A DNA stretch of 64,000 bases from Halospina denitrificans (GTDB lineage Bacteria; Pseudomonadota; Gammaproteobacteria; Pseudomonadales; Oleiphilaceae): the NCBI RefSeq assembly GCF_004364635.1, contig NZ_SOAX01000003.1:187538-251537 (forward strand). The letters run 5' to 3'. The position numbers and the translations under genes are program-made. The number at the start of each line of letters is the position of its first letter. Within the stretch, counting starts at the first letter, position 1. This document shows positions 6,772-19,152 of this stretch, piece by piece. A model generated the notes under the pieces. That model ran no database searches and was not told the origin of the DNA. It was given only the letters and a program-made list of their open reading frames with translations.

Positions 6772-9462
6772 ATGAACCGCCAAAGGCTACGCACCCGCTG
6801 CTGCGTCTGGTCGTTCTGCCTGATATGGGCGGTTGCCTTTTGCTTTGCCCCCATGCCGGCACACGCCGAACCAGATAACCAAAAAACGGGTGAAGAAACG
6901 AACGGGGAAGGCGTCGAGACTGCCACCGAAGAGGAAAAAGAAAAGCCCGAAGAAGCAAAGCCTGCTGTCCAGCCCGAACTGGAGGCCAGCACCAGAAAAC
7001 CAGAGCAAATCCAGCTTCCTGACAGCGAAACGGCGGATATCCGCCAGCAGATTCAGGCCCTGAGAAGCTCCCTGGACCAACGCCTGATTGCGGTTGAATC
7101 CACACGCACCCGCCTCAGCTACGCGGAATCACTTCTCAATCGACTTCAGGACGAATACAACAGCTTTGAGCTTCGCCTGGAAAAAGCCGGCCTCAACCTC
7201 ACCGGTGATTACGCGAGCCTCCTTGAGCAACGGCTTGAGCGGCTTCAGCGGCAAGGCATTGCGGAGGACCTGATTGACGACATTGAAAACCAGTTGTCTA
7301 CAGCGCGCGAGGAGCAGCTTCGACTGGAAGAGTTTGAAGCCGTTATCGATCCCGGCGATGATGCCCGCAGCCAGCTGAGGAGCCAGAGGGCCAGCATCAT
7401 CCGCCAGCTGCACAAGGCGGTCACGGAACACATTCGGGCGCTGAACGATTATTACAGGACGGTATCGGCGCTGCAGGAACAAGTGGAGGCCTATAAGGTT
7501 CTGCTGCAGCAGCGACTCTTCTGGCTGCCCAGTGCGCCAGCTGTAGGAGCCGAAACCCTGACAGAGCTGTTTGGGGCTGCCGCCTGGTTTGCCGAGCAGT
7601 TGCGTCTTGAACCGTTCAACGACGCAATACGCGAATCGATTCAGGAGCGTGGCGGGCCCATAACCCTTCTCATCGCCCTTCTGGCACTGCTGCTCATCAA
7701 GCGCGGGGCCATCAAACGCAACCTCAGGGCCAACGGCCAGTATGTTGGGAACGTTGGCCACGATCGCATCAAGTTTACGGTTTATGCATTCGCCAACAGC
7801 ATCTTGTTGGCCCTCCCCGGCGTGCTGGTATTCGCTGTCGGGGCGCTTTTACTCATGGAGGGCAACGACTTTTTCTCGGGTCTGTCCAGGGGACTGGGCA
7901 CTGCAGCATTAATCGTCCTCCTGCTGGCATTTTTTCATAATGTGGCCCGCCAGGGCGGATTGGGAGACGCGCATTTTTACTGGCATAGCGACTCACTGCG
8001 CGCCCTTCGCCGGGAACTGCCGTTTCTTCTGGCGGTTATCATCCCGATCACCGTGATCATGCCGACCACCGCAACACCCGCCGGATCCGAATTCGTGGAC
8101 AGCCTCGGGCGCTTGCTCTTCACCGCCGCATCCATAGCGCTGTCGACCTTCGCGCATCGTATCCTGAGTGCGATCCGGGCCGACCGGCCGCAGAGCAAAC
8201 GCCTGTTGTTCCTGCATGTACTGGCAGTGGCCACGCCCCTGGTACTGTTGGTGGCATCGCTGCTCGGCTATCACTACACCGCCCTGGTACTGGAGCGCAA
8301 CCTGTTCATCAGCATCTGCTGGCTGGCATTCAACATCATGCTGTTCTACATCGGGCTACGGGCGCTTTCGGTCCGCGAGCGTCGCCTGACGCTGGAGCGG
8401 TTGCGGGAGCACCGTGAGGCTCAACGCCAGCTCGCCGTAACCAGGGAAAGCGCCGAACCCTCAGGTGAAGGGGTACCGCAAGCACTGGATATGCCGGAAA
8501 TGGACCTCAGGGATATCAGTCAGCAGAGTACCGCGCTCCTGCGCATCCTGATTTCGGTGCTCGTCATTACCGGCCTCTGGCTGCTCTGGGCCAGCCTGAT
8601 TCCGGCCCTGCAGCTGTTCGACAACATCACGCTCTGGACCATCGCCACCGACCTGGAAGGCGGCGATCCGCTACCCATTACCCTGGGTGACCTGCTGCTG
8701 GCGCTATTCGTTGGCGTGGGTACAGTGCTCGCCGTCAGAAACCTGCCCGGCACCCTGGAAGTCATGATGCTGAGCCGGATGAAGCTTGAGCCCGGTACCA
8801 GCTATGCCATTACCACCCTCACCACCTATGCCCTGGTGTTAATCGGTGTGGTGGTTTTCCTTGGGGTGATCGGCGTCCAGTGGTCGAAGCTGCAGTGGTT
8901 GGTGGCAGCACTCGGGGTGGGTCTGGGCTTTGGCCTGCAGGAGATCGTCGCCAACTTTGTGTCCGGCATCATCCTGCTGTTCGAACGCCCCATCCGCGTC
9001 GGAGACACGGTTACCATTGACGGCATTACGGGCACGGTCACACGTATCCGCATTCGTGCAACCACCCTGGTTGACTGGGACCGCAAGGAGCAGATCATTC
9101 CCAACAAGACCTTCGTGACCCAGGATCTGACCAACTGGACACTGTCCGACTCCATCACGCGCGTCATACTGGAAGTCACCGTTGCCTACGGCTCCGATGT
9201 GGACCAGGTTCAGGAACTGCTTACGGAGGTGGCACAGACCAACGAACGGGTCGTGGATGACCCGGCACCGGCAGTGTTCTGCGTGGGCCTGGGAGATAGC
9301 GGTATTGATTTCGAGCTGCGGGTGTTTGTGAAAGATCCCCTGGACATTATGCCCCTGTCCCATGAGATCAACGCCGCCATTACTCGGGACCTGCATGAGG
9401 CAGGCATCGAGATCCCCTTCCCCCAGCGGGATATTCACGTTCGGTCAATCATGGATACATGA
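6772..9462 (+). CDS. MscK/KefA-type large mechanosensitive ion channel
   Basis: An 896-residue inner-membrane channel that should open under membrane tension and release solutes on osmotic downshock. A signal peptide (cleaved near AHA/EP, about residue 32) leads to a long periplasmic coiled coil (about 80-260), then about ten membrane segments, then the MscS core. The pore helix and start of the beta domain are clear at about 709-746: VAALGVGLGFGLQEIVANFV and FERPIRVGDTV. It is shorter than E. coli MscK or MscM (about 1100 residues), mainly in the periplasmic part. The ribosome site AAGGAG precedes ATG 6772. The mobile element begins only 38 bases after its stop; before insertion its 3' neighbour would have been tRNA-Ser. 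Confidence 0.9.
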   Translation: MNRQRLRTRCCVWSFCLIWAVAFCFAPMPAHAEPDNQKTGEETNGEGVETATEEEKEKPEEAKPAVQPELEASTRKPEQIQLPDSETADIRQQIQALRSSLDQRLIAVESTRTRLSYAESLLNRLQDEYNSFELRLEKAGLNLTGDYASLLEQRLERLQRQGIAEDLIDDIENQLSTAREEQLRLEEFEAVIDPGDDARSQLRSQRASIIRQLHKAVTEHIRALNDYYRTVSALQEQVEAYKVLLQQRLFWLPSAPAVGAETLTELFGAAAWFAEQLRLEPFNDAIRESIQERGGPITLLIALLALLLIKRGAIKRNLRANGQYVGNVGHDRIKFTVYAFANSILLALPGVLVFAVGALLLMEGNDFFSGLSRGLGTAALIVLLLAFFHNVARQGGLGDAHFYWHSDSLRALRRELPFLLAVIIPITVIMPTTATPAGSEFVDSLGRLLFTAASIALSTFAHRILSAIRADRPQSKRLLFLHVLAVATPLVLLVASLLGYHYTALVLERNLFISICWLAFNIMLFYIGLRALSVRERRLTLERLREHREAQRQLAVTRESAEPSGEGVPQALDMPEMDLRDISQQSTALLRILISVLVITGLWLLWASLIPALQLFDNITLWTIATDLEGGDPLPITLGDLLLALFVGVGTVLAVRNLPGTLEVMMLSRMKLEPGTSYAITTLTTYALVLIGVVVFLGVIGVQWSKLQWLVAALGVGLGFGLQEIVANFVSGIILLFERPIRVGDTVTIDGITGTVTRIRIRATTLVDWDRKEQIIPNKTFVTQDLTNWTLSDSITRVILEVTVAYGSDVDQVQELLTEVAQTNERVVDDPAPAVFCVGLGDSGIDFELRVFVKDPLDIMPLSHEINAAITRDLHEAGIEIPFPQRDIHVRSIMDT

Positions 9463-9499
9463 ACTGCGACGGGGCCGTAATTCTACAACGAAAGCGTTA

Positions 9500-9515
9500 A
9501 ATGGCGGTGGGCCAG
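9500..9515 (+). repeat. attL core (copy of tRNA-Ser 3' end)
   Basis: AATGGCGGTGGGCCAG is identical to 19061-19076. It holds the complement of the CCA end, discriminator, acceptor strand and two further bases of tRNA-Ser. The match ends sharply on both sides, as expected for an integrase core duplicated on insertion. Confidence 0.85.
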
Positions 9516-9621
9516 TCCGCTTCGGAGGGCTATATATGCCTGATTTTACCCATTTTTTTAGAACGTCTCCGCAATAAATCCCTGATTACTCCCATAATCC
9601 TGTAAACCCCTGTCGCACCTT

Positions 9622-9638
9622 GTAACATCCAATGTTAT
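9622..9638. promoter_or_regulatory. GTAACAT dyad upstream of int (operator candidate)
   Basis: GTAACAT-CCA-ATGTTAT is an inverted repeat with six symmetric pairs, about 90 bases before the integrase start. A related dyad with a 5-base spacer lies before alpA at 11174-11192. The pairing of the two suggests a shared regulator, which is inferred. Confidence 0.45.
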
Positions 9639-9645
9639 TCTTTAT

Positions 9646-9664
9646 GGTACGTATATGAGTACGT
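9646..9664 (+). repeat. tandem GGTACGT/AGTACGT repeat, left end
   Basis: GGTACGT (9646-9652) and AGTACGT (9658-9664) are spaced 12 bases start to start, 130 bases inside the left att core. The same arrangement occurs at the right end (19001-19019) and, inverted, before the terminase genes (14915-14948). Integrase arm-type binding or a regulator site is possible. Confidence 0.5.
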
Positions 9665-9694
9665 GAACTTTTTGAGGGGTTGGGTTTCTGGTGC

Positions 9695-9708
9695 GGGATT
9701 CGAACCCC
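9695..9708 (+). repeat. tRNA T-arm-like remnant next to int
   Basis: GGGATTCGAACCCC is identical to 19076-19089 in the T arm of tRNA-Ser. It lies 180 bases inside the left att core, just before the integrase start. The flanking bases do not complete a proper T stem or acceptor stem, so it is not a functional tRNA part. It may be a relic of an older attachment site. Confidence 0.45.
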
Positions 9709-9726
9709 TTACAGGGAGGCGGTGAC

Positions 9727-11118
9727 ATGCCAAAGAAAGCGAAAGAGATGACAGCGAAAGAGGTGCGGGATCTGAAACCGCGCATTGGTAAAGACGGAAA
9801 ACCGTACAATACCTATTATGCCGTTGGTGGTGTCTCCGGTCTAAACCTGGAGGCGGCGGCAACCGGCGGCAAGTCCTGGGTTTTACGTGTCGCCGTTGGT
9901 GTCCAGCTCGACACCAAAGGGAACCCGAAACTGGATAAGAATGGCTATCCCAAACCACAGCGCCAAAGTATCGGCCTTGGTGGCTTCCCTGATGTATCGC
10001 TTTCACAGGCGCGTGACAAGGCGCGAGAGATCAAAGAAAAGATCGCGCAAGGCATCAACCCGCTGGAGGAAAAGAAAGCCGCCAGAGCCGCCCTGATTGC
10101 CGCCCAACGGCGCAACGTCACTTTCCGGGAAGTGGCGAAAGACTGCTATGACGTTAAAGCCGCTGAGTTCAAAAACGAGAAACATTCCCTGCAATGGTGG
10201 CGCACCCTGGAGGTTAATGCTTTTCCGTCTATCGGTGACATGCCCATAAACGAGATCAGCACGGATGACGTTGTACGCACCCTGAAACCAAAATGGGACA
10301 GCACGCCGGACGCGGCTGACCGCATACGTCAACGCATGGGCGCAGTATTTGAGTATGCCTTGACCGGGGATAAGCCAATCCGCACCAATCCGGTCAACCC
10401 TGCCCGATGGGAGAATCTGAAGGGCAAGCTACCTGCCTTCCAGGCCGTCAAAAAGAAATCCGGCAAGGCCAACCGTCACCATCCCGCCCTGCCCTATAAA
10501 GACATGCCGCGCCTAATGGCGGATCTGCGTTCGAAACATGCCAACGGGGCGAAGGCTTTGCAGTTTGCCATATTAACCGGCGCTCGCTCCGAGGAAGTCA
10601 GAAAGGCCACGTGGGATGAAATCGACCTGACCGAAAAGACATGGCACTTGAGCGCAGAGCGGATGAAAGCCGACCGGCCCCACACGGTCCCATTGTCGGA
10701 TGCTGCCGTGGAGCTACTGAGGACCATGCCGAAAAAGACTCCGGGTAATCTGATATTCGGATCAGCACAAGGCAAAGTTATGTCAGATAACACGCTATCC
10801 AAGCTCATTAAGGACATGCACGCGGCGGATCTGAAGCGCGGTGGCGACGGATACACCGACCCAAAACAGGATAACCGTATTGCAACGCCACACGGCACGG
10901 CGCGTTCGAGCTTCAAAGAATGGGCCAGGAAGGCCACAAGATACCCGGACGAGTATTCCGAGATCGCGCTGGCACACGTCAACACTGACGAGACGCGCTC
11001 CGCGTATGCGCGTGACGAGCTACTGGCAGAGCGTCGGCCAATGATGCAGGAATGGGCGCGGTATTGTTACCAGGGCGATCAGTCGGAATCAGAGGATGCG
11101 GAGAAGGAGGCCGGTTAA
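9727..11118 (+). CDS. int: tyrosine recombinase integrase (P4/DUF4102 type)
   Basis: A 463-residue integrase expected to insert and excise the element at tRNA-Ser. The N-terminal arm-binding DUF4102-type domain (about residues 8-125, with QSIGLGGFPDVSLSQARDKA) is followed by a SAM-like core-binding domain and the catalytic domain. Catalytic residues are visible: Arg287 in LTGARSEEVRKATW, His389 and Arg393 in PHGTARSSFKEWA, His417 in IALAHV and the nucleophile Tyr427 in RSAYARDE. ATG 9727 was chosen because GGAGGCGGTGAC precedes it; the frame extends upstream to 9691 but only through tRNA-like DNA. It is transcribed inward from the end distal to the intact tRNA, unlike many islands where int abuts the tRNA. 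Confidence 0.95.
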   Translation: MPKKAKEMTAKEVRDLKPRIGKDGKPYNTYYAVGGVSGLNLEAAATGGKSWVLRVAVGVQLDTKGNPKLDKNGYPKPQRQSIGLGGFPDVSLSQARDKAREIKEKIAQGINPLEEKKAARAALIAAQRRNVTFREVAKDCYDVKAAEFKNEKHSLQWWRTLEVNAFPSIGDMPINEISTDDVVRTLKPKWDSTPDAADRIRQRMGAVFEYALTGDKPIRTNPVNPARWENLKGKLPAFQAVKKKSGKANRHHPALPYKDMPRLMADLRSKHANGAKALQFAILTGARSEEVRKATWDEIDLTEKTWHLSAERMKADRPHTVPLSDAAVELLRTMPKKTPGNLIFGSAQGKVMSDNTLSKLIKDMHAADLKRGGDGYTDPKQDNRIATPHGTARSSFKEWARKATRYPDEYSEIALAHVNTDETRSAYARDELLAERRPMMQEWARYCYQGDQSESEDAEKEAG

Positions 11119-11173
11119 AACGGTTATAAAAACCCCTTGCCTTATAACTGAAACATGCTGTAGCATTGGATCT

Positions 11174-11192
11174 GTAACATGCTTAATGTTAC
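11174..11192. promoter_or_regulatory. GTAACAT dyad upstream of alpA (operator candidate)
   Basis: GTAACAT-GCTTA-ATGTTAC is a perfect 7-bp inverted repeat with a 5-base spacer, 220 bases before alpA and 56 bases after int. The half-sites match those of the dyad before int at 9622-9638. Confidence 0.5.
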
Positions 11193-11310
11193 TACAAATT
11201 GCAAGCTTGAGCGATGGCAACTTAACAGCGTCAGCCGAAGACGGGGTCTCCGGAAAGGCGTTCCGACGGGGTCGGTGGCCGTGCCAGATAAGTTGAATAG
11301 CTCGTAAAAG

Positions 11311-11377
11311 TGGCGGTGCCACCTGCTTTGCGGAGTCAATCTGATTGATGATGCAGCCGGTGGACCGCCATTTTTTT
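11311..11377 (+). terminator. leader hairpin with T-run before alpA (attenuator-like)
   Basis: TGGCGGTGCCACC (11311-11323) pairs with GGTGGACCGCCA (11359-11370) over 12 pairs with one bulge, and is followed by seven T. The 35-base loop can fold further (TCAAT/ATTGA and CTGC/GCAG). Placed between the regulatory dyad and alpA, it could terminate read-through from int or attenuate the alpA-primase operon. Confidence 0.55.
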
Positions 11378-11411
11378 ATGCGCGTGGGGCCGGTTGCCCG
11401 GAGACCCCAAA

Positions 11412-11597
11412 ATGAGCGAGCTGAAAAAATACCTCTCTGACAGTGATAATGCGACCCGTTACGGCGTAAGCCGTCAAACCGTCTGGCGCTGGGTGCGTCA
11501 GGGTAAGTTCCCCTCCCCTATCCGTATCAACGGATGCACCCGCTGGAAACTCTCCGACCTGGAAGCGTGGGAAGCACGCCAGGAGGGTGTAGCGTGA
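11412..11597 (+). CDS. alpA: AlpA-family helix-turn-helix regulator/excisionase
   Basis: A 61-residue AlpA/MerR-like winged-helix protein: an ATRYGVSRQTVWRWVRQGKF recognition helix region, then PSPIRINGCTRWKLSDLEAW, which is the family signature. AlpA proteins activate satellite or prophage genes and can act as excisionases. GGAG at 11400-11403 precedes the ATG. The gene opens a tightly coupled operon: its TGA overlaps the GTG of the next gene. In P4-like and PICI satellites an AlpA homologue is a common master regulator, so this is the best candidate inducer of the element. Confidence 0.9.
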   Translation: MSELKKYLSDSDNATRYGVSRQTVWRWVRQGKFPSPIRINGCTRWKLSDLEAWEARQEGVA

Positions 11598-11785
11598 GCG
11601 CATACACCACGATCCAAGTAGCTACCCTGGAAACCGGCGTTAGCAAGGGATTGCTGATTCCTGCCATTGCCAGAGGCGAAGTAAGAGCCTGGAGCATTGC
11701 CGGTGAAACTGTCGTTGTCCTTTCCGATGTTCGCAGCTTCAAAGCGCGGATTATGGCTGACAGGGGGTGCGAATCATGCGATTGA
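11594..11785 (+). CDS. small HTH-like protein between alpA and primase
   Basis: A 63-residue frame starting with GTG, overlapping the alpA stop by four bases (GTGA) and preceded by the strong ribosome site AGGAGGG at 11581-11587. The pattern TLETGVSKGLLIPAIARGEV followed by a wing-like AWSIAGETVVVL and SDVRSFKARI resembles a degenerate excisionase/MerR-type winged helix, which is an inference. Its 3' end overlaps the primase start. It could be a second DNA-binding regulator or an excisionase partner of AlpA. Confidence 0.7.
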   Translation: MSAYTTIQVATLETGVSKGLLIPAIARGEVRAWSIAGETVVVLSDVRSFKARIMADRGCESCD

Positions 11786-14388
11786 ATGAGAACGCCCCCG
11801 CAGCCTGGGAAGCTGACGAGGGCACACAAGAGACGAGCGGGCAAGCTCAAATTGATTATAACGTAATCAGTGACGAAGCCGCTAGCGCCCTGATGAGCGC
11901 GTATCCGTGCTGTCTGGTGTATCAAAAGGGCGAGATTGACGGTAACGGCAACCCCTCTCCGGGCAAGAATCCCAAAGGGTTTAAGTGGACCGACAATCCG
12001 CGCAAAGCTACAGAGCGAAGCGCCACCGATGGGATAGGCGTTATCTGCGGATTCTCTGGCAACTACAGCGCCCCGGTGGGAGCCGTGGACGTTGATGTTA
12101 CGCATGAGGACGCAGCGCGTGAGCTTTACGACTTTATCAGCCAGTACCTAAAAAACAGGGACGGGGCAAAGCTGGTACGCACCGGCAAGCCGCCAAAGTT
12201 CCTCATTCCCTACCGCATGCCGGAGGTGGCGAAAAAGAAAAACACCACCGCGCTCTATCCGGTAGATGCTGAGTCTGGGTTAATCCATACGGAAAGGGAG
12301 CATAAAAACCAGGTGGAGTTCCTGGGCAAAGGCGAGCAGTTCATCGCGTACCACATTCATCCTGATACTGGCGAGCCGTACCAGTGGCGGAACCTTTGCG
12401 ACGAGAACGCCCCTCAGAGCTTGCACGAGTGCGACCCTGCCGAGCTGGTGGAGCTGACAGCCGATGATCTGGATACGTTTGATTGGGCGTTTAACGAGAT
12501 CGCAGACCGCCACCGGCTGGAGCCGAAACCGAAAGGCGACAAAGACCAATCCAAGCCGTGCCAGTCCCTAGAATCTGCCGTGCATGAAAGCGAGGCGGAT
12601 CACGTTGATTATCTGGTTTCGTGGATTCCAAACAATGATGCGGACTATGACGATGAATGGTTCCCGATCATTGCGGCTATCCATGACGCGGCAGGCGAAG
12701 CCGGGAAAGAAATAGCCCGTAAATGGTCTGCCCAATCAGGATTGCACGAGGAAGGCAAGTTCGAGAAAACCTGGGGCAGCATGGGCAGCTATTCCGGCAA
12801 GCGAGCCAGTAAGGGGAAACTGATTGCCCTGGCCCGCGAGAATGGCATGCCCAGAAGTAACCCCAGAGCGTCGACAACATCCGCACAACAGCCAAACCCA
12901 CCGGAGCCGGACCAGTGGCCTACCCTGGCCGATCCGTTCGCAGAGTACACCGTCCCGGCCTTTCCGCTGGATATTCTGCCCAATGCGTTTCAGACGTTCT
13001 GCCGTGAGAAGTCGGAACAATCGGGCTTTGATGAAGGCGGTTACGCGTTCTGCCTGCTGGCTGCGTTCGGTAACACCGTGGACCACCGCGCCCAACTGGA
13101 TCTGGGACCGTTCAAGGTGCCTGCCTTTTCCTGGAATGGCCTCGTGGACAGCTCAGGGGGCGGCAAGAGTCCGGTACTCAGTGCATCCATCAAAGCGCCT
13201 TGCGAGATCAATGACGCCATTGTCAGAGACTCTGAGCGTGCTATGGGCAAGTGGCGCGAGGAGCTGGAGTCTGCAAAGCAGGCCAAACAAGATCCGCCGC
13301 CCAAACCTCCCTGGAAGCAGCGCCATGCCAGTGACACCACCACTGAGGCATTGGCTCAACTTCTGAGCGACAACCCGGAAGGCGTCAATCTGTACTTTGA
13401 CGAGATGACCGAGTTCCTGGGGCGCATGGATGCCTACAGTGGCAAGGATGGCGGAAAGGACCGTGGTGTCTATCTGCGCTCGTGGGATGGCGGTCAAGTA
13501 ACGATCAACCGCGCAACCAAGGAACCGCTGGTGGTGCCCAACTTCAGCGTGGGAATACTCGCTGGTGTTCAGCCAGAGGTACTAGCGCAGAAGTTCCAGA
13601 AGTCGGGAGGCGCTTCCGGCGCTGATGGGCTTTATCAGCGGTTTGCCCTGTACTGCATGCGCCCTGCCGGTGAAGTCGATTACATGGCAAAGCTGAATCC
13701 GTTTACCGAAACCAACGTGACTCAGGTATTTAACGCCCTGCAACGGTGGAACGAGGACGAAACGAAGCTGTCAGCCAGTCTCACAACCGGCGCTCAGAGT
13801 CTAATGCAGGACTACCACAACCAGGTTAGAAAGCTGGCAACGCGGACCAGTGCAAGGCGCTTTGCAGAGCATCTAAACAAGTTCCCCGGCATGCTGGGGC
13901 GCTTTGCGTACTCGCTGCACTTGCTCTATGCCGCCGCCCGTGACGAGCCGCCCCACCAATACGTTGATGCCGACACTATGAAGCAGGCCATGAAGCTGAT
14001 GCGCGTGCTGTATCGCCATTCAGAGGCCGTCTATGCGGTTCTGGATCAACAGGCGGGGGATGTTAAGGCGCTCGTTATCAGTGCCGCTGAGGCGATTCTG
14101 GCGAAGCAGTGGGCGCAGTTTAAGAGAGGCGATCTGACGCGCAATGCGACCTATTGGCAGGGGGCGGAGTCGTACCATGCGGAGAGTGCAACGGATTACC
14201 TGATCGAGATGGGCTGGATAGCCGACATTACACCACCACCGATTCCAGGCAAGCGGGGGCGGCGCTCTGATGGTGTCTTTGCCGTTAATCCAAAGGTGCA
14301 TGCTCAGTTCAGCGAGCACCAGAGGCGGATCAAGGAGGCCAGAGCCGAAAGGTATCAGGCATTGAAGGAAGTCGCGGGAGGGAATTAG
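11776..14388 (+). CDS. primase-helicase-like replication protein (prim-pol, PriCT-like, DUF3987)
   Basis: An 870-residue protein expected to start replication of the excised element. The N-terminal archaeo-eukaryotic primase/polymerase-like part (about residues 20-250) has an acidic VGAVDVDV motif near 100. A PriCT-like segment (about 275-345) contains SWIPNNDADYDDEWFPIIAA. The large DUF3987 part (about 395-860) holds a P-loop-like GLVDSSGGGKSP at about 455-466 and a NLYFDEMTEFL acidic motif. ATG 11776 lies after AGGGGG; an in-frame GTG at 11767 is less well placed. Translation is likely coupled to the preceding HTH gene. Similar genes occur in PICIs and other small integrative elements. Domain boundaries are approximate. 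Confidence 0.85.
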   Translation: MRLNENAPAAWEADEGTQETSGQAQIDYNVISDEAASALMSAYPCCLVYQKGEIDGNGNPSPGKNPKGFKWTDNPRKATERSATDGIGVICGFSGNYSAPVGAVDVDVTHEDAARELYDFISQYLKNRDGAKLVRTGKPPKFLIPYRMPEVAKKKNTTALYPVDAESGLIHTEREHKNQVEFLGKGEQFIAYHIHPDTGEPYQWRNLCDENAPQSLHECDPAELVELTADDLDTFDWAFNEIADRHRLEPKPKGDKDQSKPCQSLESAVHESEADHVDYLVSWIPNNDADYDDEWFPIIAAIHDAAGEAGKEIARKWSAQSGLHEEGKFEKTWGSMGSYSGKRASKGKLIALARENGMPRSNPRASTTSAQQPNPPEPDQWPTLADPFAEYTVPAFPLDILPNAFQTFCREKSEQSGFDEGGYAFCLLAAFGNTVDHRAQLDLGPFKVPAFSWNGLVDSSGGGKSPVLSASIKAPCEINDAIVRDSERAMGKWREELESAKQAKQDPPPKPPWKQRHASDTTTEALAQLLSDNPEGVNLYFDEMTEFLGRMDAYSGKDGGKDRGVYLRSWDGGQVTINRATKEPLVVPNFSVGILAGVQPEVLAQKFQKSGGASGADGLYQRFALYCMRPAGEVDYMAKLNPFTETNVTQVFNALQRWNEDETKLSASLTTGAQSLMQDYHNQVRKLATRTSARRFAEHLNKFPGMLGRFAYSLHLLYAAARDEPPHQYVDADTMKQAMKLMRVLYRHSEAVYAVLDQQAGDVKALVISAAEAILAKQWAQFKRGDLTRNATYWQGAESYHAESATDYLIEMGWIADITPPPIPGKRGRRSDGVFAVNPKVHAQFSEHQRRIKEARAERYQALKEVAGGN

Positions 14389-14480
14389 TTGAATTTCTTG
14401 TATGCGCGTACGAGACGGAAAGTATAAATAACCCCTCTATATATATTTTTCACTTCGTACGCACATACAACTTATTCAAC
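14388..14480. repeat. imperfect 26-bp inverted repeat with AT-rich loop (replication origin candidate)
   Basis: Arms 14388-14413 and 14455-14480 match at 22 of 26 positions; the inner 16 bases have one mismatch (TTGTATGCGCGTACGA against the complement of TCGTACGCACATACAA). The 41-base loop is AT-rich with TATATATATTTTT. The left arm starts at the last base of the primase stop codon. Location next to the primase gene and an easily melted centre suggest an origin; a transcription terminator or regulator site is the alternative. Confidence 0.55.
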
Positions 14481-14549
14481 AAAATACCGTGGTGAAGCCC
14501 AGCCAGGGAGGGCAATCCCTAATGGTCAAAAAATGAACAGGACAACCCC

Positions 14550-14774
14550 ATGAGAGACATAGACGAAACCCAAGAGAAAGGCGACTCGTGCAACCCTGCC
14601 GAGATCCTGGAGGCAGCGAAGGAGCTGAACGTCCCGGAGCATCATATACGCCCATTGTCGTGGTACGTGACGGGCTTTTGCCTGCATAACAAGGCAGAGC
14701 GGCATGGGCCTGCCCATCGGTTCTATTTAATGGCGGAGCGGGAGGCAGAGGCTATCGCAGTGATTTACGGATAA
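14550..14774 (+). CDS. hypothetical 74-residue protein of the element
   Basis: A short frame encoding a Glu-rich N-terminal half (ILEAAKELNVPEHHIRPLSW) and a C-terminal half with AERHGPAHRFYLMAEREAEA. No family is recognised. The ribosome site is weak (ACAGGACA before the ATG). It stands alone between the inverted repeat and a 200-base non-coding stretch, so it may belong to the replication module. The coding assignment rests on length and context only. Confidence 0.5.
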   Translation: MRDIDETQEKGDSCNPAEILEAAKELNVPEHHIRPLSWYVTGFCLHNKAERHGPAHRFYLMAEREAEAIAVIYG

Positions 14775-14863
14775 CGAACCAGAGCCAGGGATGGCACGCC
14801 ACCTTTCAGACCCAGCCGCAAGAATAGCCCCAATCAACCCCGCTACCCTGCCCTGAAACCCCT

Positions 14864-14907
14864 TATGGCGGTCATATACGCCGCCATACCGTCATATAAG
14901 TCATAAA
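14864..14907. repeat. hairpin and GTCATA repeats before the terminase operon
   Basis: TATGGCGG (14864-14871) and CCGCCATA (14881-14888) form an 8-bp hairpin with a 9-base loop. Overlapping it are direct repeats GTCATATA at 14871-14878 and 14891-14898 and GTCATAAA at 14900-14907. Together with the GGTRCGT array just downstream this forms a compact repeat-rich control region. Confidence 0.45.
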
Positions 14908-14914
14908 CCTATGG

Positions 14915-14948
14915 ACGCACCTTTTTATAACGTGCCATAATACGTACC
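14915..14948 (-). repeat. GGTRCGT-type repeats before the terminase operon
   Basis: On the minus strand GGTACGT (14948-14942), GGCACGT (14936-14930) and GGTGCGT (14921-14915) follow one another; the first pair has the same 12-base spacing as the repeats at the two ends of the element. The array ends 28 bases before the next gene, in promoter position. Confidence 0.55.
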
Positions 14949-14976
14949 ATAAACAGGTTAAAAACGGCGCGATTAC

Positions 14977-15336
14977 ATGCCCAAACAGTCAGACATACCA
15001 AGCAAGTTTAACCACGGCTGGCTCCAGGATCTTGACTCCAGGACTGCCCTGGCCCGTGAGCTACGGGAACGCTATAAGGCCCTGACCGATGATCTAGGGG
15101 GCGCTGATCGGCTTTCATACGCCCAGGCTAGTTTAGCGGAACGCGCCCTCTGGCTGGAGCGCTTTCTGGTACTGCAAGAGCAAGAGCTGGCCAATGGTAG
15201 GGAGTTCGATGCTTCCCGCTGGGTCCAAGCGTGCAATAGCTTGCAAGGGATCCTCACCAAGCTGAGGTTAGAGCGAAAAGCCAAAGAGGTCCCCTCGCTT
15301 GGTGAATACCTCAAGGCGAAAGGTGGCAACCAATGA
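14977..15336 (+). CDS. putative small terminase subunit
   Basis: A 119-residue, mostly helical protein without a recognised motif. Its stop overlaps the start of the large terminase gene (ATGA), the usual arrangement of terS and terL, and its size and charge suit a small terminase subunit that would select the element's DNA for packaging. Residues about 20-45 (ALARELRERYKALTDDLGGA) and 60-110 are predicted helices. No clear Shine-Dalgarno site precedes ATG 14977. The function is inferred from position; a different packaging adaptor is possible. Confidence 0.6.
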   Translation: MPKQSDIPSKFNHGWLQDLDSRTALARELRERYKALTDDLGGADRLSYAQASLAERALWLERFLVLQEQELANGREFDASRWVQACNSLQGILTKLRLERKAKEVPSLGEYLKAKGGNQ

Positions 15337-16811
15337 CCGACCGACACCCCGCTCCAGCTCCAGTCGATCCCATAACGGCCTTAACCGATGACAACCTGCT
15401 TGCGCCGATGCTCCCTGGCGTCCATGACGGAAGCTGGGATAACTGGCTCGTTATCGTGCGTGGCCTTTACGGCATGCCGATGACCGACGAACAGGCGGCG
15501 ACCTGGAGGCAATTAACCGACCGTGAGCCGCCCTCAGAGCCGCTACGCAGCGCTTTTATGCTGGTGGGTAGAAGGGGCGGGAAAACGCAGATAGCCGCCG
15601 CCCTGACGCTCTATGAAACCGCTATGAGGGACTGGAGCAACGTCCGGTCTGCCGGTGAGCTGATTGTCGGCGCTATGGTTGCCGGGGATCGTCGGCAAGC
15701 CGGACAAGCCATGCGATATATCAGCGGTGGCCTTGATAGTTCCTCGATGCTGAAGCGGATGGTGGTCAAAGAGACAACGGAAGCTATCGAGTTAAGCAAC
15801 GGGACAGAAGTCACCGTAATGACGGCCAACCATAGGACAATTCGCTCGCGCAGCTTTGGCGCGCTGATCTGCGACGAAATCGGCCACTGGTATCAAGAGG
15901 GAGCGTCACCAGACGTTGAAATCGTCCGAGCCGCTGAACCTGCCCTCAGTCTCACTAACGGCCTGCTGTTAGGCGCATCAACCCCGCACAAGCGTGATGG
16001 CGTGCTGCATTCCAAAGACAAGCGCCATTGGGGTGATGACGAGTCTAAGACGCTCATCGTTCACGGCACGAGCCGCCAACTTAACCCGCGCTTGCCGCAG
16101 TCGGTAGTAGACGAGGCGATGGCAGAGGACGAGGCCGCCGCCCGTTCGGAGTACCTGGCAGAGTGGCGTGATGACCTTGCCGGATTCATTCAACGCGACG
16201 TCCTGGAGGCGCTGGTCGATCCCGATGTGACCGAGCGTGAACCCGACCGCAACACCCGCTATCGGGCCTTTATTGACGTATCCGGTGGCGTCGGGGATTC
16301 GTTCTGCTGGGCAGTAGCGCATAGCGAGGATGGCGTCGACATTCTGGATCTGGTGAAAGAGGTCAAGCCGCCGTTCGATCCGCTCCAGGTAACAATGGAA
16401 TGCGCCGAGGATCTGAAGCGGTACAAGCTGCGCAGAGCTGCCGGTGATGCCTACGCTGCCGAGTGGGTAACGTCTCACTTCCGCCGATGTGGGATTGAGT
16501 ACGACCGCAGCGACAAAAACCGCAGTCAAATCTATTTGGACGCCCTGCCCCGGCTGACTTCCGGCAAGGTGACATTGCTCGACAATCAGCGCCTCATCAA
16601 TCAGGTGGCTGCCCTGGAGCGTCGAACCCGCAGCGGTGGCCGGGACTCAGTAGACCATCCTAGAAACGGATCAGATGATGTTGCCAATGCTGCGCTTGGT
16701 GCAATTTGCGGCCAATCGCGCGACCGCAGCGGCTGGATTCAACCAATGCCGGTGGCATTCCCCGGACAAGTGCAACAGCAACCCAAACGCTGGACCCCAA
16801 TAGGACACTAA
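15333..16811 (+). CDS. terL: large terminase subunit (ATPase and nuclease)
   Basis: A 492-residue DNA-packaging motor. The ATPase half has a Walker A VGRRGGKT (residues 78-85), Walker B ALICDE (177-182) and the coupling motif LLLGASTP (211-218). The nuclease half has the three acidic RNase H-fold positions: Asp315 in FIDVSGG, Asp372 in AGDAYAAEW and Asp448/449 in GSDDVANAA. Both activities therefore look intact. It overlaps the preceding putative terS by four bases. No portal, capsid or protease gene follows, so the motor would have to dock on a helper phage's portal. It could also be a relic of a prophage, but no decay is visible. Confidence 0.9.
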   Translation: MTDRHPAPAPVDPITALTDDNLLAPMLPGVHDGSWDNWLVIVRGLYGMPMTDEQAATWRQLTDREPPSEPLRSAFMLVGRRGGKTQIAAALTLYETAMRDWSNVRSAGELIVGAMVAGDRRQAGQAMRYISGGLDSSSMLKRMVVKETTEAIELSNGTEVTVMTANHRTIRSRSFGALICDEIGHWYQEGASPDVEIVRAAEPALSLTNGLLLGASTPHKRDGVLHSKDKRHWGDDESKTLIVHGTSRQLNPRLPQSVVDEAMAEDEAAARSEYLAEWRDDLAGFIQRDVLEALVDPDVTEREPDRNTRYRAFIDVSGGVGDSFCWAVAHSEDGVDILDLVKEVKPPFDPLQVTMECAEDLKRYKLRRAAGDAYAAEWVTSHFRRCGIEYDRSDKNRSQIYLDALPRLTSGKVTLLDNQRLINQVAALERRTRSGGRDSVDHPRNGSDDVANAALGAICGQSRDRSGWIQPMPVAFPGQVQQQPKRWTPIGH

Positions 16812-16823
16812 GAGGACATAACC

Positions 16824-17612
16824 ATGAGTATGCGAACCGATTTGAAATTCCAGAACGGCAAACTTTCCGCCAACGTGGAATCCAACAATGCAGACGCCCG
16901 CGAGGCGCTGCCCCCGATTGACCCCGGCGACCGGCTAGGGTCTGACCAGTGGGGCGAGGCGCTGAAAAAGCAGGCCGGGGATCTGGCCGATGATCCGGCG
17001 CTGAATACTGCCGCCCGCGCCCATGAGCGGCTGGTTAAAGGGTTTCAGTCAGTCGCACAGCAACGGGACACGCAAGACCCTTCAGTGCCACAGCTCCAAC
17101 ATCTCCGACAAGTTGAGACTAACTTTAACTCCCTGGTGAGCATGGCTAGTAAGCAGACCAGTGCCGCCCGTGAGGACGTGGCGAAGCGCGTGAAGGACGT
17201 TAAGGCAGAGTTCGAGCAAGGTATCGGATTCAATGATAAGGACGCTTCCGAGATTCGCGGAATGCTGCGCAACATGGATCAGGATCAGCGCTCCGAGTTC
17301 ATTCAACAGGCGGTAGAAAACGGGGATGGAAACGTAATGGCGGCGGTTTTCCGCTCGCATCCGTCCCTGTCTGGGCTCTCTCAGGACGCCGTAAACGCCC
17401 GCTATCGCCAAGCCATGCGAAAGCACGCCCCCAAGGCGGAAAAGCTGCTGGACAGCCTAGAGCAAGCTGATTCGCTGCTGTTTGATTCGTTCAACGACCT
17501 GTTGACCAAGGGCGACCAGCTCACAGCTAAAGAGATCCGCGAAAAGAAAGAGCAGGAATCCCAGGCCGCGAAGCAGGCGGCTGATGCTGTCACTGCCGAT
17601 TGGACTGCGTAA
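16824..17612 (+). CDS. helical 262-residue protein after terL, unknown function
   Basis: The protein starts 12 bases after terL behind AGAGGA and should be co-transcribed. The sequence is polar, rich in Ala, Gln, Asp and Lys, with probable coiled coil around residues 85-140 (HLRQVETNFNSLVSMASKQT region) and again at 200-255 near the C terminus. There is no membrane segment, Cys cluster or enzyme motif. In phages a scaffold, portal or head-completion gene usually stands here, so a scaffolding-like or capsid-redirecting role is conceivable, but nothing in the sequence proves it. Confidence 0.75.
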   Translation: MSMRTDLKFQNGKLSANVESNNADAREALPPIDPGDRLGSDQWGEALKKQAGDLADDPALNTAARAHERLVKGFQSVAQQRDTQDPSVPQLQHLRQVETNFNSLVSMASKQTSAAREDVAKRVKDVKAEFEQGIGFNDKDASEIRGMLRNMDQDQRSEFIQQAVENGDGNVMAAVFRSHPSLSGLSQDAVNARYRQAMRKHAPKAEKLLDSLEQADSLLFDSFNDLLTKGDQLTAKEIREKKEQESQAAKQAADAVTADWTA

Positions 17613-17640
17613 CCGATCAACCGCCGCCCCGCTTTGCCCT

Positions 17641-17684
17641 AACCGCCCCCTAGCAACGGGCTTAGCGGTGGTGGCGGCCTTTTT
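17641..17684 (+). terminator. probable terminator after the packaging operon
   Basis: ACCGC pairs with GCGGT around a CTAGC/GCTTAG inner stem, and the flanking GGCGGCC is followed by five T (17680-17684). The structure is imperfect. It separates the 262-residue gene from the GTG-start gene that follows. Confidence 0.45.
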
Positions 17685-17698
17685 AGGAGATCCCGCCC

Positions 17699-17974
17699 GT
17701 GGAAGCACGCAACGTAGATTGTGAAGACCCCGCAGACCGGATAACCGGCGAGCGTCGGCTATGGGCGGAGGCTCTGGGGCAGTTATTGCGTGATGGGATT
17801 GCCCATTGGAAGGGCAAGCAAGGCGCATCCGGTGGAGCCACACCCACGGACCTGGAACAAGCCTTCGATGATCTGTGCAGGGCTGGTCCTATGACGCGCT
17901 ATGTATGCGACCGGCTGGAGGTGGACGCGCAGACGGTGGCGGAGCAGTTCATCCGGTATCTGGAGGCGCATTAA
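17699..17974 (+). CDS. small phage-type protein, unknown function
   Basis: A 91-residue protein with GTG start preceded by AGGAGA at 17685-17690. The pattern ERRLWAEALGQLLRDG near the N terminus and DLEQAFDDLCRAG followed by a helix-turn-helix-like CDRLEVDAQTVAEQFIRYL at the end recurs, in my recollection, in small proteobacterial prophage proteins of unknown role. The last helices could bind DNA. It is the last plus-strand gene of the element and overlaps the stop of the convergent zinc-ribbon gene by four bases. Confidence 0.7.
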   Translation: MEARNVDCEDPADRITGERRLWAEALGQLLRDGIAHWKGKQGASGGATPTDLEQAFDDLCRAGPMTRYVCDRLEVDAQTVAEQFIRYLEAH

Positions 17975-18267
17975 GATCCGTAAGTAATCCAAGCGCCGAT
18001 AGCCAAAGCAATAAAGGCGGTAATCATTCCAGGACCAAAGCCCGCTGTCATTCCAACCACAACAGCGACACCTATCCCGACTAACGCAAAGGCTTGACCA
18101 AGATCGTTCCGTAGTTTTGAACGCTGGTTGCCCTTTTTATTGGCATCTACGCTTCCGGGCGAAGGTTGCCCCGCTGCACTGGAGCTGATCGGACAGCCGC
18201 ACTCGTTACAGGTTGCGGCCTTATCTGAGACTTGTTTACCGCATTCCGGGCAAGCAATGAGCGCCAT
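17971..18267 (-). CDS. zinc-ribbon membrane protein
   Basis: A 98-residue protein with an N-terminal zinc ribbon (Cys6, Cys9, Cys20, Cys23 in CPECGKQ and CNECGC), a polar linker (about 28-52) and a C-terminal hydrophobic part (about 55-97: ALVGIGVAVVVGMTAGFG and MITAFIALAIGAWITY) that makes two membrane helices. The start at 18267 follows GAGGA; a longer frame to 18312 has no better site. It is transcribed against the packaging genes, in the cargo position near attR. The role is unknown; membrane-linked phage exclusion is one speculative option. Confidence 0.75.
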   Translation of the reverse strand: MALIACPECGKQVSDKAATCNECGCPISSSAAGQPSPGSVDANKKGNQRSKLRNDLGQAFALVGIGVAVVVGMTAGFGPGMITAFIALAIGAWITYGS

Positions 18268-18539
18268 GGTGCTGATCCTCGTTTCCGTGCCTTTGCGAAG
18301 TATGGCAGACAATATGCCGCATTGCCGGAGCGAGCTGTAAGGATACGGTAAGGATCAAGGGAAAGGTGCCAGTCCTCTCCCTGGCTAGTCCCACCACTGA
18401 GCAGGTGGCGCACCCCGTCGGCATCCGTGCTAATCGCATCCGTGCATAGGGGCTCTCATCCGTTGAGACGGTGCGAACGATACAGAGCAAACGGCATACC
18501 CAGTATAGGCATTTTGCTCATGGACGTGTAGGAAATCGC
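18268..18539. other. non-coding stretch in the cargo module
   Basis: About 270 bases between the two reverse-strand genes. It holds two GTAAGGAT copies about 11 bases apart (near 18340-18360) and two GCATCCGTGC copies 15 bases apart (near 18420-18445). No convincing gene or promoter is seen. Confidence 0.35.
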
Positions 18540-18887
18540 TTACACATCGTCATCTTCATGCATATCAAACCAGCTAGCCAACTCATCCACACAACGGCTG
18601 AGCTGAAGCCGCTCTTCTACGCTAAGTGAGCGCGCCTTAACAATCCAAGCGCCCTCCCCCTTTTCATCCTCCACTTTTTCTGTGTTCATCATTCCTTGGA
18701 TAACTTTAATCCAATCCTTAGCACTTTCATCCAGGAACGGGCTAACTTCTTCAGTCTCAATGCCTTTAAGACCAAGATGGCAAGCGTGGAAAGCGTTAGC
18801 GATTGACCCCTCCTCCCCCTCCAGATGGGGAAGCATCAAACACGCACGGGCTTCATTCAATTTTTCAGCTGGGTAAGTAAACCGCAT
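18540..18887 (-). CDS. hypothetical acidic protein of the element
   Basis: A 115-residue protein with no recognised family, opening MRFTYPAEKLNEARACLMLP and ending in the acidic SWFDMHEDDDV. It is acidic overall and predicted helical, with no membrane segment. TAGGAGC precedes the ATG on the minus strand at good distance, supporting real expression. Its DNA reads less GC-rich than the host genes around the element, in keeping with recent transfer. Being outside the replication and packaging modules, next to attR, it is a likely accessory (cargo) gene. Confidence 0.7.
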   Translation of the reverse strand: MRFTYPAEKLNEARACLMLPHLEGEEGSIANAFHACHLGLKGIETEEVSPFLDESAKDWIKVIQGMMNTEKVEDEKGEGAWIVKARSLSVEERLQLSRCVDELASWFDMHEDDDV

Positions 18888-19000
18888 AGAACCGCTCCTA
18901 TTCCGAATTTATGTCAGATAGAAGGGAGTGAGGCATATAGACGCCAGAGGGTCAATATCGGGATCGGGACAACCGGATAGTTTCTAACCGTTTTCAGGTT

Positions 19001-19019
19001 GGTACGTAGAAAGGTGCGT
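19001..19019 (+). repeat. tandem GGTACGT/GGTGCGT repeat, right end
   Basis: GGTACGT (19001-19007) and GGTGCGT (19013-19019) have the same 12-base spacing and orientation as the left-end pair, 42 bases inside the right att core. After circularisation the two pairs would flank the joined att site, as integrase arm sites do. Confidence 0.5.
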
Positions 19020-19060
19020 TACGCCCTAAATTCTTCGTAACTACCTGAAAATAAAGGAGT

Positions 19061-19076
19061 AATGGCGGTGGGCCAG
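19061..19076 (+). repeat. attR core within tRNA-Ser 3' end
   Basis: AATGGCGGTGGGCCAG, identical to 9500-9515. It overlaps the 3' end of tRNA-Ser, so the insertion restores a complete tRNA on this side. Confidence 0.85.
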
Positions 19077-19152
19077 GGATTCGAACCCCGGGAGGGCGTT
19101 AACCCTCGGCGGTTTTCAAGACCGCTGCATTCGACCACTCTGCCAGCCCACC
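19063..19152 (-). tRNA. tRNA-Ser (anticodon UGA)
   Basis: A complete 90-nt class II tRNA on the minus strand with encoded CCA. The acceptor stem is GGTGGGC/GCCCACC, the anticodon stem GCGGT/ACCGC holds loop CTTGAAA (anticodon TGA), a long variable arm CGAGGG/CCCTCC follows, and the T arm contains TTCGAAT. It is the integration target of the element to its left. Confidence 0.96.

Follow-up and report, generated by a model that had tools for sequence, protein, structure and literature searches.

To our knowledge, the described phage satellites either steer the terminase of a helper phage or carry a complete head module. In this study, we analyzed a 64-kb stretch of Halospina denitrificans DNA (contig NZ_SOAX01000003.1, positions 187,538 to 251,537; hereafter the window, whose numbering is used for all its coordinates). 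Positions 9500 to 19076 of the window hold a compact element inserted in a tRNA-Ser gene. Judged from its sequence, the element is probably an integrated phage satellite that encodes its own terminase and relies on a helper for most of the virion, the portal included. Known satellite families were compared with it by their published descriptions.

cf-PICIs carry a full head set, including portal and connectors (PMC10690885, PMC13230959). The window element resembles them, and their plasmid form cf-PISP, in having its own small (TerS) and large (TerL) terminase subunits; some of its relatives also have coat and protease genes, and plasmid relatives occur in Methylobacterium and Komagataeibacter. 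However, it lacks coat, protease, portal, and connectors, and its tRNA-bounded relatives have at most a coat, scaffold, or protease gene and no recognizable portal. Compared with the terminase set of cf-PICIs, TerL is present, TerS is probable, and no HNH gene was found with Pfam and PHROGs. PICIs use TerS or Rpp together with the TerL of the helper (PMC10690885). The window element, of about 10 kb, has the int, alpA-like, and primase core of Gram-negative PICIs, but differs from them by its own intact TerL. PICMIs are located at fis in Vibrionaceae and have no homolog of terS, sid, or ppi; DUF3987 has also been used to find them (PMC10803314). An integrase, an AlpA-like regulator, a DUF3987 primase, and a length of approximately 10 kb are features in common with PICMIs, whereas the insertion at tRNA-Ser and the whole terminase are not.

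P4 is packaged by the terminase of P2 (PMC10690885), and satellite external scaffolds, TcaP and Sid, set capsid size (PMC10945586). No family of sid- or psu-type capsid genes was matched in the window element (Pfam, PHROGs). The role proposed below for p262, a conserved helical protein of the element, would likely be comparable to that in PLE and P4, in which a satellite scaffold (TcaP, Sid) reshapes the helper coat; p262 differs in having no detectable similarity to a solved scaffold. PLE11 assembles chimeric tails using a tape measure that it encodes itself, and its virions contain ICP1-encoded capsid proteins; putative tmp genes have been reported in cf-PICIs as well (PMC12987554). Relatives of the window element also have a satellite tape measure, which is therefore not new by itself. 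The Streptomyces satellites Mulch and Flayer carry portal, coat, scaffold, and adapter genes and no primase (PMC10690885). They are similar in combining small and large terminase with head genes, but they are primase-less and portal-bearing, whereas the window element has a primase and no recognizable portal.

The element spans 9,561 bp and is bounded by two exact 16-bp copies of AATGGCGGTGGGCCAG in direct orientation, attL (9500-9515) and attR (19061-19076). The exact att repeat in tRNA-Ser claimed by an earlier sequence-only reading was thus confirmed; the right copy overlaps the 3' end of the tRNA-Ser(tga) gene (19063-19152, minus strand; Rfam tRNA match, tRNA-Ser(UGA)), the integration target. 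No third copy of AATGGCGGTGGGCCAG was found on either strand of the window with up to three mismatches. For a comparison of the 9463-9690 zone with the tRNA, chance alone would give approximately 5e-6 matches to the exact 16 bp. Putative integrase arm-type sites are present on the left (GGTACGTATATGAGTACGT, 9646-9664) and on the right (GGTACGTAGAAAGGTGCGT, 19001-19019). The left motif lies at an equal distance from att in L163, an element of a congener described below, and the right one is matched there in motif and position. A further sequence, GGTGCGGGATTCGAACCC (9690-9707), just 5' of the int ATG, looks like a tRNA T-arm; 14 bp of it, GGGATTCGAACCCC, are common to tRNA-Ser and may be a chance match or a vestige of an earlier att site.

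The gene order is int, an AlpA-like HTH_17 gene, a second small HTH-like gene, primase, p74, TerS-like gene, TerL, p262, p91, and two reverse open reading frames (ORFs). TerL (15333-16811, plus strand, 492 aa) matched the PHROG terminase large subunit at 7.8e-20 and had no Pfam match and no PDB sequence match. Its motifs are intact, namely Walker A (79-84), Walker B (D181/E182), and the conserved acidic residues D315, D372, and D448/D449, so that the intact TerL proposed earlier stands. The probable TerS (14977-15336, plus strand, 119 aa) has counterparts of 43-63% identity in four relatives in the same family, and its structure model is all-helical (pLDDT 89). No significant sequence or fold match was obtained for it, a weak fold resemblance to HK97 TerS being below significance. 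It is called TerS because of its position, its 4-base overlap with TerL, and a linkage to TerL that is conserved in 67 of 119 loci; the earlier assignment was also only to a probable TerS, and is kept as such.

The integration and replication genes lie upstream, all on the plus strand. The tyrosine integrase (9727-11118; Phage_integrase 3.9e-14, PHROG integrase 2e-42) is 41-43% identical to integrases of Marinobacter elements; its frame is open from a GTG at 9691, and the probable start is the ATG at 9727, which matches the relatives. The next gene (11394-11597) encodes an HTH_17 protein (3.2e-11; PHROG excisionase/regulator 6e-14). Pfam AlpA itself scored only 0.0019, below the family cut-off; the AlpA of the sequence-only reading holds as an AlpA-like excisionase or regulator. 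p83 (11534-11785), the second small HTH-like protein, was judged by eye from position and sequence to be the counterpart of p87 in L163. The primase-helicase (11767-14388) has Prim-Pol (1.6e-5), PriCT-2 (8.9e-6), and DUF3987 (6e-46) domains, and the int and DUF3987 primase calls were both borne out by Pfam and PHROG matches. As had been stated, Pfam and PHROG scans assigned none of the remaining ORFs to a capsid, portal, tail, or lysis family.

Single-sequence TerL searches found a few plasmids and, at 37-42% identity, four relatives belonging to the same family, and single-sequence scans of viral and genome contigs gave nothing; a profile from a seven-sequence TerL alignment was needed. The profile matched 142 genome contigs and 48 viral contigs, with 35-42% identity within the clade and mostly in Pseudomonadota. 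The 80 genome loci retained are chiefly from Gamma- and Alphaproteobacteria, with some from Nitrospira. The best match to the window TerL among isolated phages was only 22.7% identical. Across 119 loci with a TerL of this clade, a TerS-like gene was recognizable in 67 and an integrase in 66. Exact repeats enclose int to TerL in 31 elements (6.4-16 kb, median approximately 10 kb), 28 of them at a tRNA gene. These tRNA-anchored elements, about 28 in Gamma- and Alphaproteobacteria, share the same core and are mostly 8-16 kb long (one 6.4 kb). The compact order thus recurs in many genomes and at many tRNA sites, as the sequence-only reading had proposed to check, and the relatives with full head and tail modules that it named as the contrary case were not seen at the same att sites or with the same TerL (larger viral contigs, e.g., L114-L120, were left aside). 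One Marinobacter genome (G061) has three such satellites (L013, L180, and L181) at tRNA-Leu, tRNA-Ser, and tRNA-Arg, with two unrelated terminases.

The same tRNA-Ser site was compared in congeners. In G021 and G027 the site is empty, as only one att core is present. In G009, the tRNA is occupied by the 9.8-kb element L163, whose int and HTH genes are homologous to those of the window element and whose arm sites agree with it. L163 differs from the window element in its primase-helicase, an unrelated TerL, a scaffold (PHROG 206, 1e-6), and a Gp13-like coat protein (PHROG 247, 6e-95). The L163-type TerL recurs in Marinobacter at 70-78% identity, and the loci long enough to be read are compact elements; among 151 genomes, neither this second-type TerL nor the coat was found outside compact elements or contig fragments. 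In Marinobacter L177 and L178, scaffold, coat protein, and p91 come after the second-type TerL; in L179, L180, and L181, p262 and p91 do. p262 therefore takes the slot of scaffold and coat, and p91, a small protein of the packaging module, comes next in all five elements, whichever cassette precedes it.

In the window element, p262 (16824-17612) and p91 (17699-17974), both on the plus strand, are conserved in relatives. The sequence-only reading had listed small accessory genes; this still applies to the reverse ORFs as probable cargo, but p262 and p91, being conserved, are parts of the element itself. The AlphaFold model of p262 is confident (pLDDT 88) and consists almost entirely of long helices. 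p262 belongs to no family and had no fold match in PDB or BFVD, the best hits being unrelated long-helix proteins (E >0.04). From the slot exchange and the precedent of TcaP and Sid, we infer that p262 may act as a capsid-assembly or capsid-size factor. A role as portal is disfavored, as the p262-like proteins of L105 and L109 have a DUF4055 portal-like protein as their neighbor, and so is a role as a TerL-specific partner, as p262 occurs with two unrelated TerLs.

Several relatives with a window-clade TerL have virion genes of their own. An HK97-type coat is encoded in L019, L021, L022, L026, L058, and L075 (PHROG 10 to 4e-85; Pfam Phage_capsid 1.6e-70), a Gp13-like coat with scaffold in L085, a maturation protease in L030 and L075, and a tape measure in L010, L058, L060, L061, L075, L085, and others. 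For the portal, every protein of at least 380 aa encoded after TerL in the 31 bounded elements was examined, and none was a recognizable portal; they comprise coat, tape-measure or tail-like proteins, one DNA methyltransferase, one ATPase-like protein, and unknowns. One of them, with 840 aa and no family match, clusters with tape-measure proteins. On the TerL tree, the cassette types are scattered, with 19 changes for five labels, which is consistent with repeated swapping; the labels were set by the immediate neighbors, so that tape-measure and coat types are undercounted. The tape measure as a shortened helper gene was unsupported: the L010 protein has 551 aa and its nearest phage homolog itself only about 523 aa. 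In a search for a resident helper, no homolog of the L010 protein was found outside the satellite in eight host genomes.

Circular relatives were also found. Two related metagenome contigs, L098 and L099, end in terminal repeats (114 and 60 bp, respectively), and one is circularly permuted with respect to the other. They close into circles of 9.7 and 9.3 kb that carry int, an HTH gene, TerL, and the gene for a 698-aa protein similar to tape measures. Small plasmids with the same terminase occur in Methylobacterium, Komagataeibacter, and Roseomonas, one of them truncated. These contigs and plasmids demonstrate compact circular relatives, not packaging. The Komagataeibacter plasmid pKNA06 (L007, 25.8 kb) is a partial dimer of a 14-kb unit with TerS-TerL and a DUF2213 protease, and a contig of this 14-kb form (L088) is labeled with a coverage of 335. 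The Rhodovastum plasmid RHOAph (L015, 10.7 kb), which has a protease/coat fusion protein, a DUF3987 primase, and no annotated terminase, is possibly another type of satellite plasmid.

The general features of a satellite are present in the window element: att boundaries, an integrase, replication genes, an incomplete virion set, and a recurrent compact form. In the proposed cycle, a helper phage would induce the element, which would be excised by Int with the HTH/AlpA-like protein and replicated by its own primase. The element TerS would then pick the element DNA, and TerL would dock on the portal of procapsids at least partly derived from the helper. p262 would steer or resize coat assembly, a job done elsewhere by the members' own scaffold and coat, and portal, connectors, tail, and lysis would be supplied by the helper. 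The earlier proposal of a satellite bringing its own motor to a helper's procapsid therefore keeps the satellite, its terminase, and the recurrent compact order, but its wording on the procapsid is too narrow, because several relatives carry their own coat, scaffold, protease, or tape measure. By its gene content, the family is modular: a shared core for integration and replication is combined with a terminase, of which there are at least two unrelated kinds, and with a head and/or tail cassette that can be exchanged. A broader proposal, which we hold to be evenly balanced, is that these elements form a widespread, unnamed satellite class of Pseudomonadota built on a satellite-specific terminase: they would combine their own motor with swappable, size-setting virion parts (coat, scaffold, protease, tape measure, or a p262-like stand-in) and usually no portal, so that the motor must work on a helper portal, sometimes in a shell of satellite coat.

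Some observations weigh against the satellite reading. Neither of the two main Pfam portal families is present in the window genome, and no helper was identified. Portals of these two families were likewise absent from six of the eight satellite-host genomes searched, negatives that cover two Pfam families, the DUF4055 search having no working control. A DUF4055 portal-like protein stands beside the p262-like protein in L105 and L109, which are outside the bounded set. The role of p262 is read from its position, family and significant fold matches being absent. The window TerL is the most divergent of its clade (13 of 73 near-invariant columns altered, median 1; end branch 2.55), which could reflect adaptation or early decay. 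Such a long branch would also suit a deletion remnant, an ordinary prophage stripped of the modules for head, tail, and lysis, as deletion could leave terminase genes beside an integrase with no structural genes. However, independent compact elements, alike in size and order, number in the dozens and occupy many tRNA sites; at the tRNA-Ser site, one congener combines the same core with another packaging module and two have no element; the catalytic motifs of TerL are intact; and no isolated phage has this TerL. The deletion-remnant explanation is thus largely refuted and very improbable.

Assignment to a known family (cf-PICI, PICI, P4-like, PLE, PICMI, VEIME, or tycheposon) in an unfamiliar host is unlikely, a judgment made from the gene content of the first five. 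The int, AlpA-like gene, and primase core is that of PICIs and PICMIs (PMC10803314), and some relatives have head genes as cf-PICIs do; yet cf-PICIs encode coat, protease, portal, and connectors (PMC10690885), and PICMIs integrate at fis and are without terS (PMC10803314). The terminase might instead only cut or interfere with the helper, whose own terminase would package the element DNA. Interference genes are common in satellites, and p91 and p262 have no known function in Pfam and PHROG scans, but the TerS-TerL pair, in which the ATPase and nuclease residues are conserved, and the co-occurrence of coat genes in relatives point to packaging, and we consider this explanation improbable. p262, unannotated, conserved, and replacing scaffold and coat in one slot, could also be a new coat or portal of a very small autonomous virus with structural proteins too divergent to be recognized. 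This is highly improbable: so few genes could not provide portal, coat, connector, tail, and lysis together, p262 is predicted to fold into long helices and not into an HK97 fold, and in L105 and L109 a p262-like protein is found next to the DUF4055 portal-like protein.

If the element is a satellite of the proposed kind, a whole terminase with usually no portal would be a third packaging strategy, and would put to the test the extent to which a terminase can function on a foreign portal. Many small islands at tRNA genes that are currently annotated as prophage fragments or hypothetical genes would also be explained. The exchange of p262 for scaffold and coat in nature makes the capsid-size hypothesis directly testable.

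The remaining features of the element are minor. An AT-rich non-coding stretch with inverted GTACG-containing repeats (14389-14549) lies directly 3' of the primase and is a possible replication origin. p74 (14550-14774, plus strand, 74 aa) and a 115-aa ORF (18540-18887, minus strand), the latter probable cargo, belong to no family in Pfam or PHROGs. A promoter scan gave a result no better than chance. The other probable cargo gene (17971-18312, minus strand) was recognized from its sequence and encodes a protein with a zinc ribbon and a hydrophobic segment. A minus-strand zinc-ribbon protein with the same MALI-x-CxxC start is encoded downstream of TerL in L109 (14799-15449), and the two are possibly a shared cargo gene. 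Directly left of attL lies an MscK-like mechanosensitive channel gene (6772-9462); it is absent from this locus in G009 and G021, so that the left flank varies among congeners.

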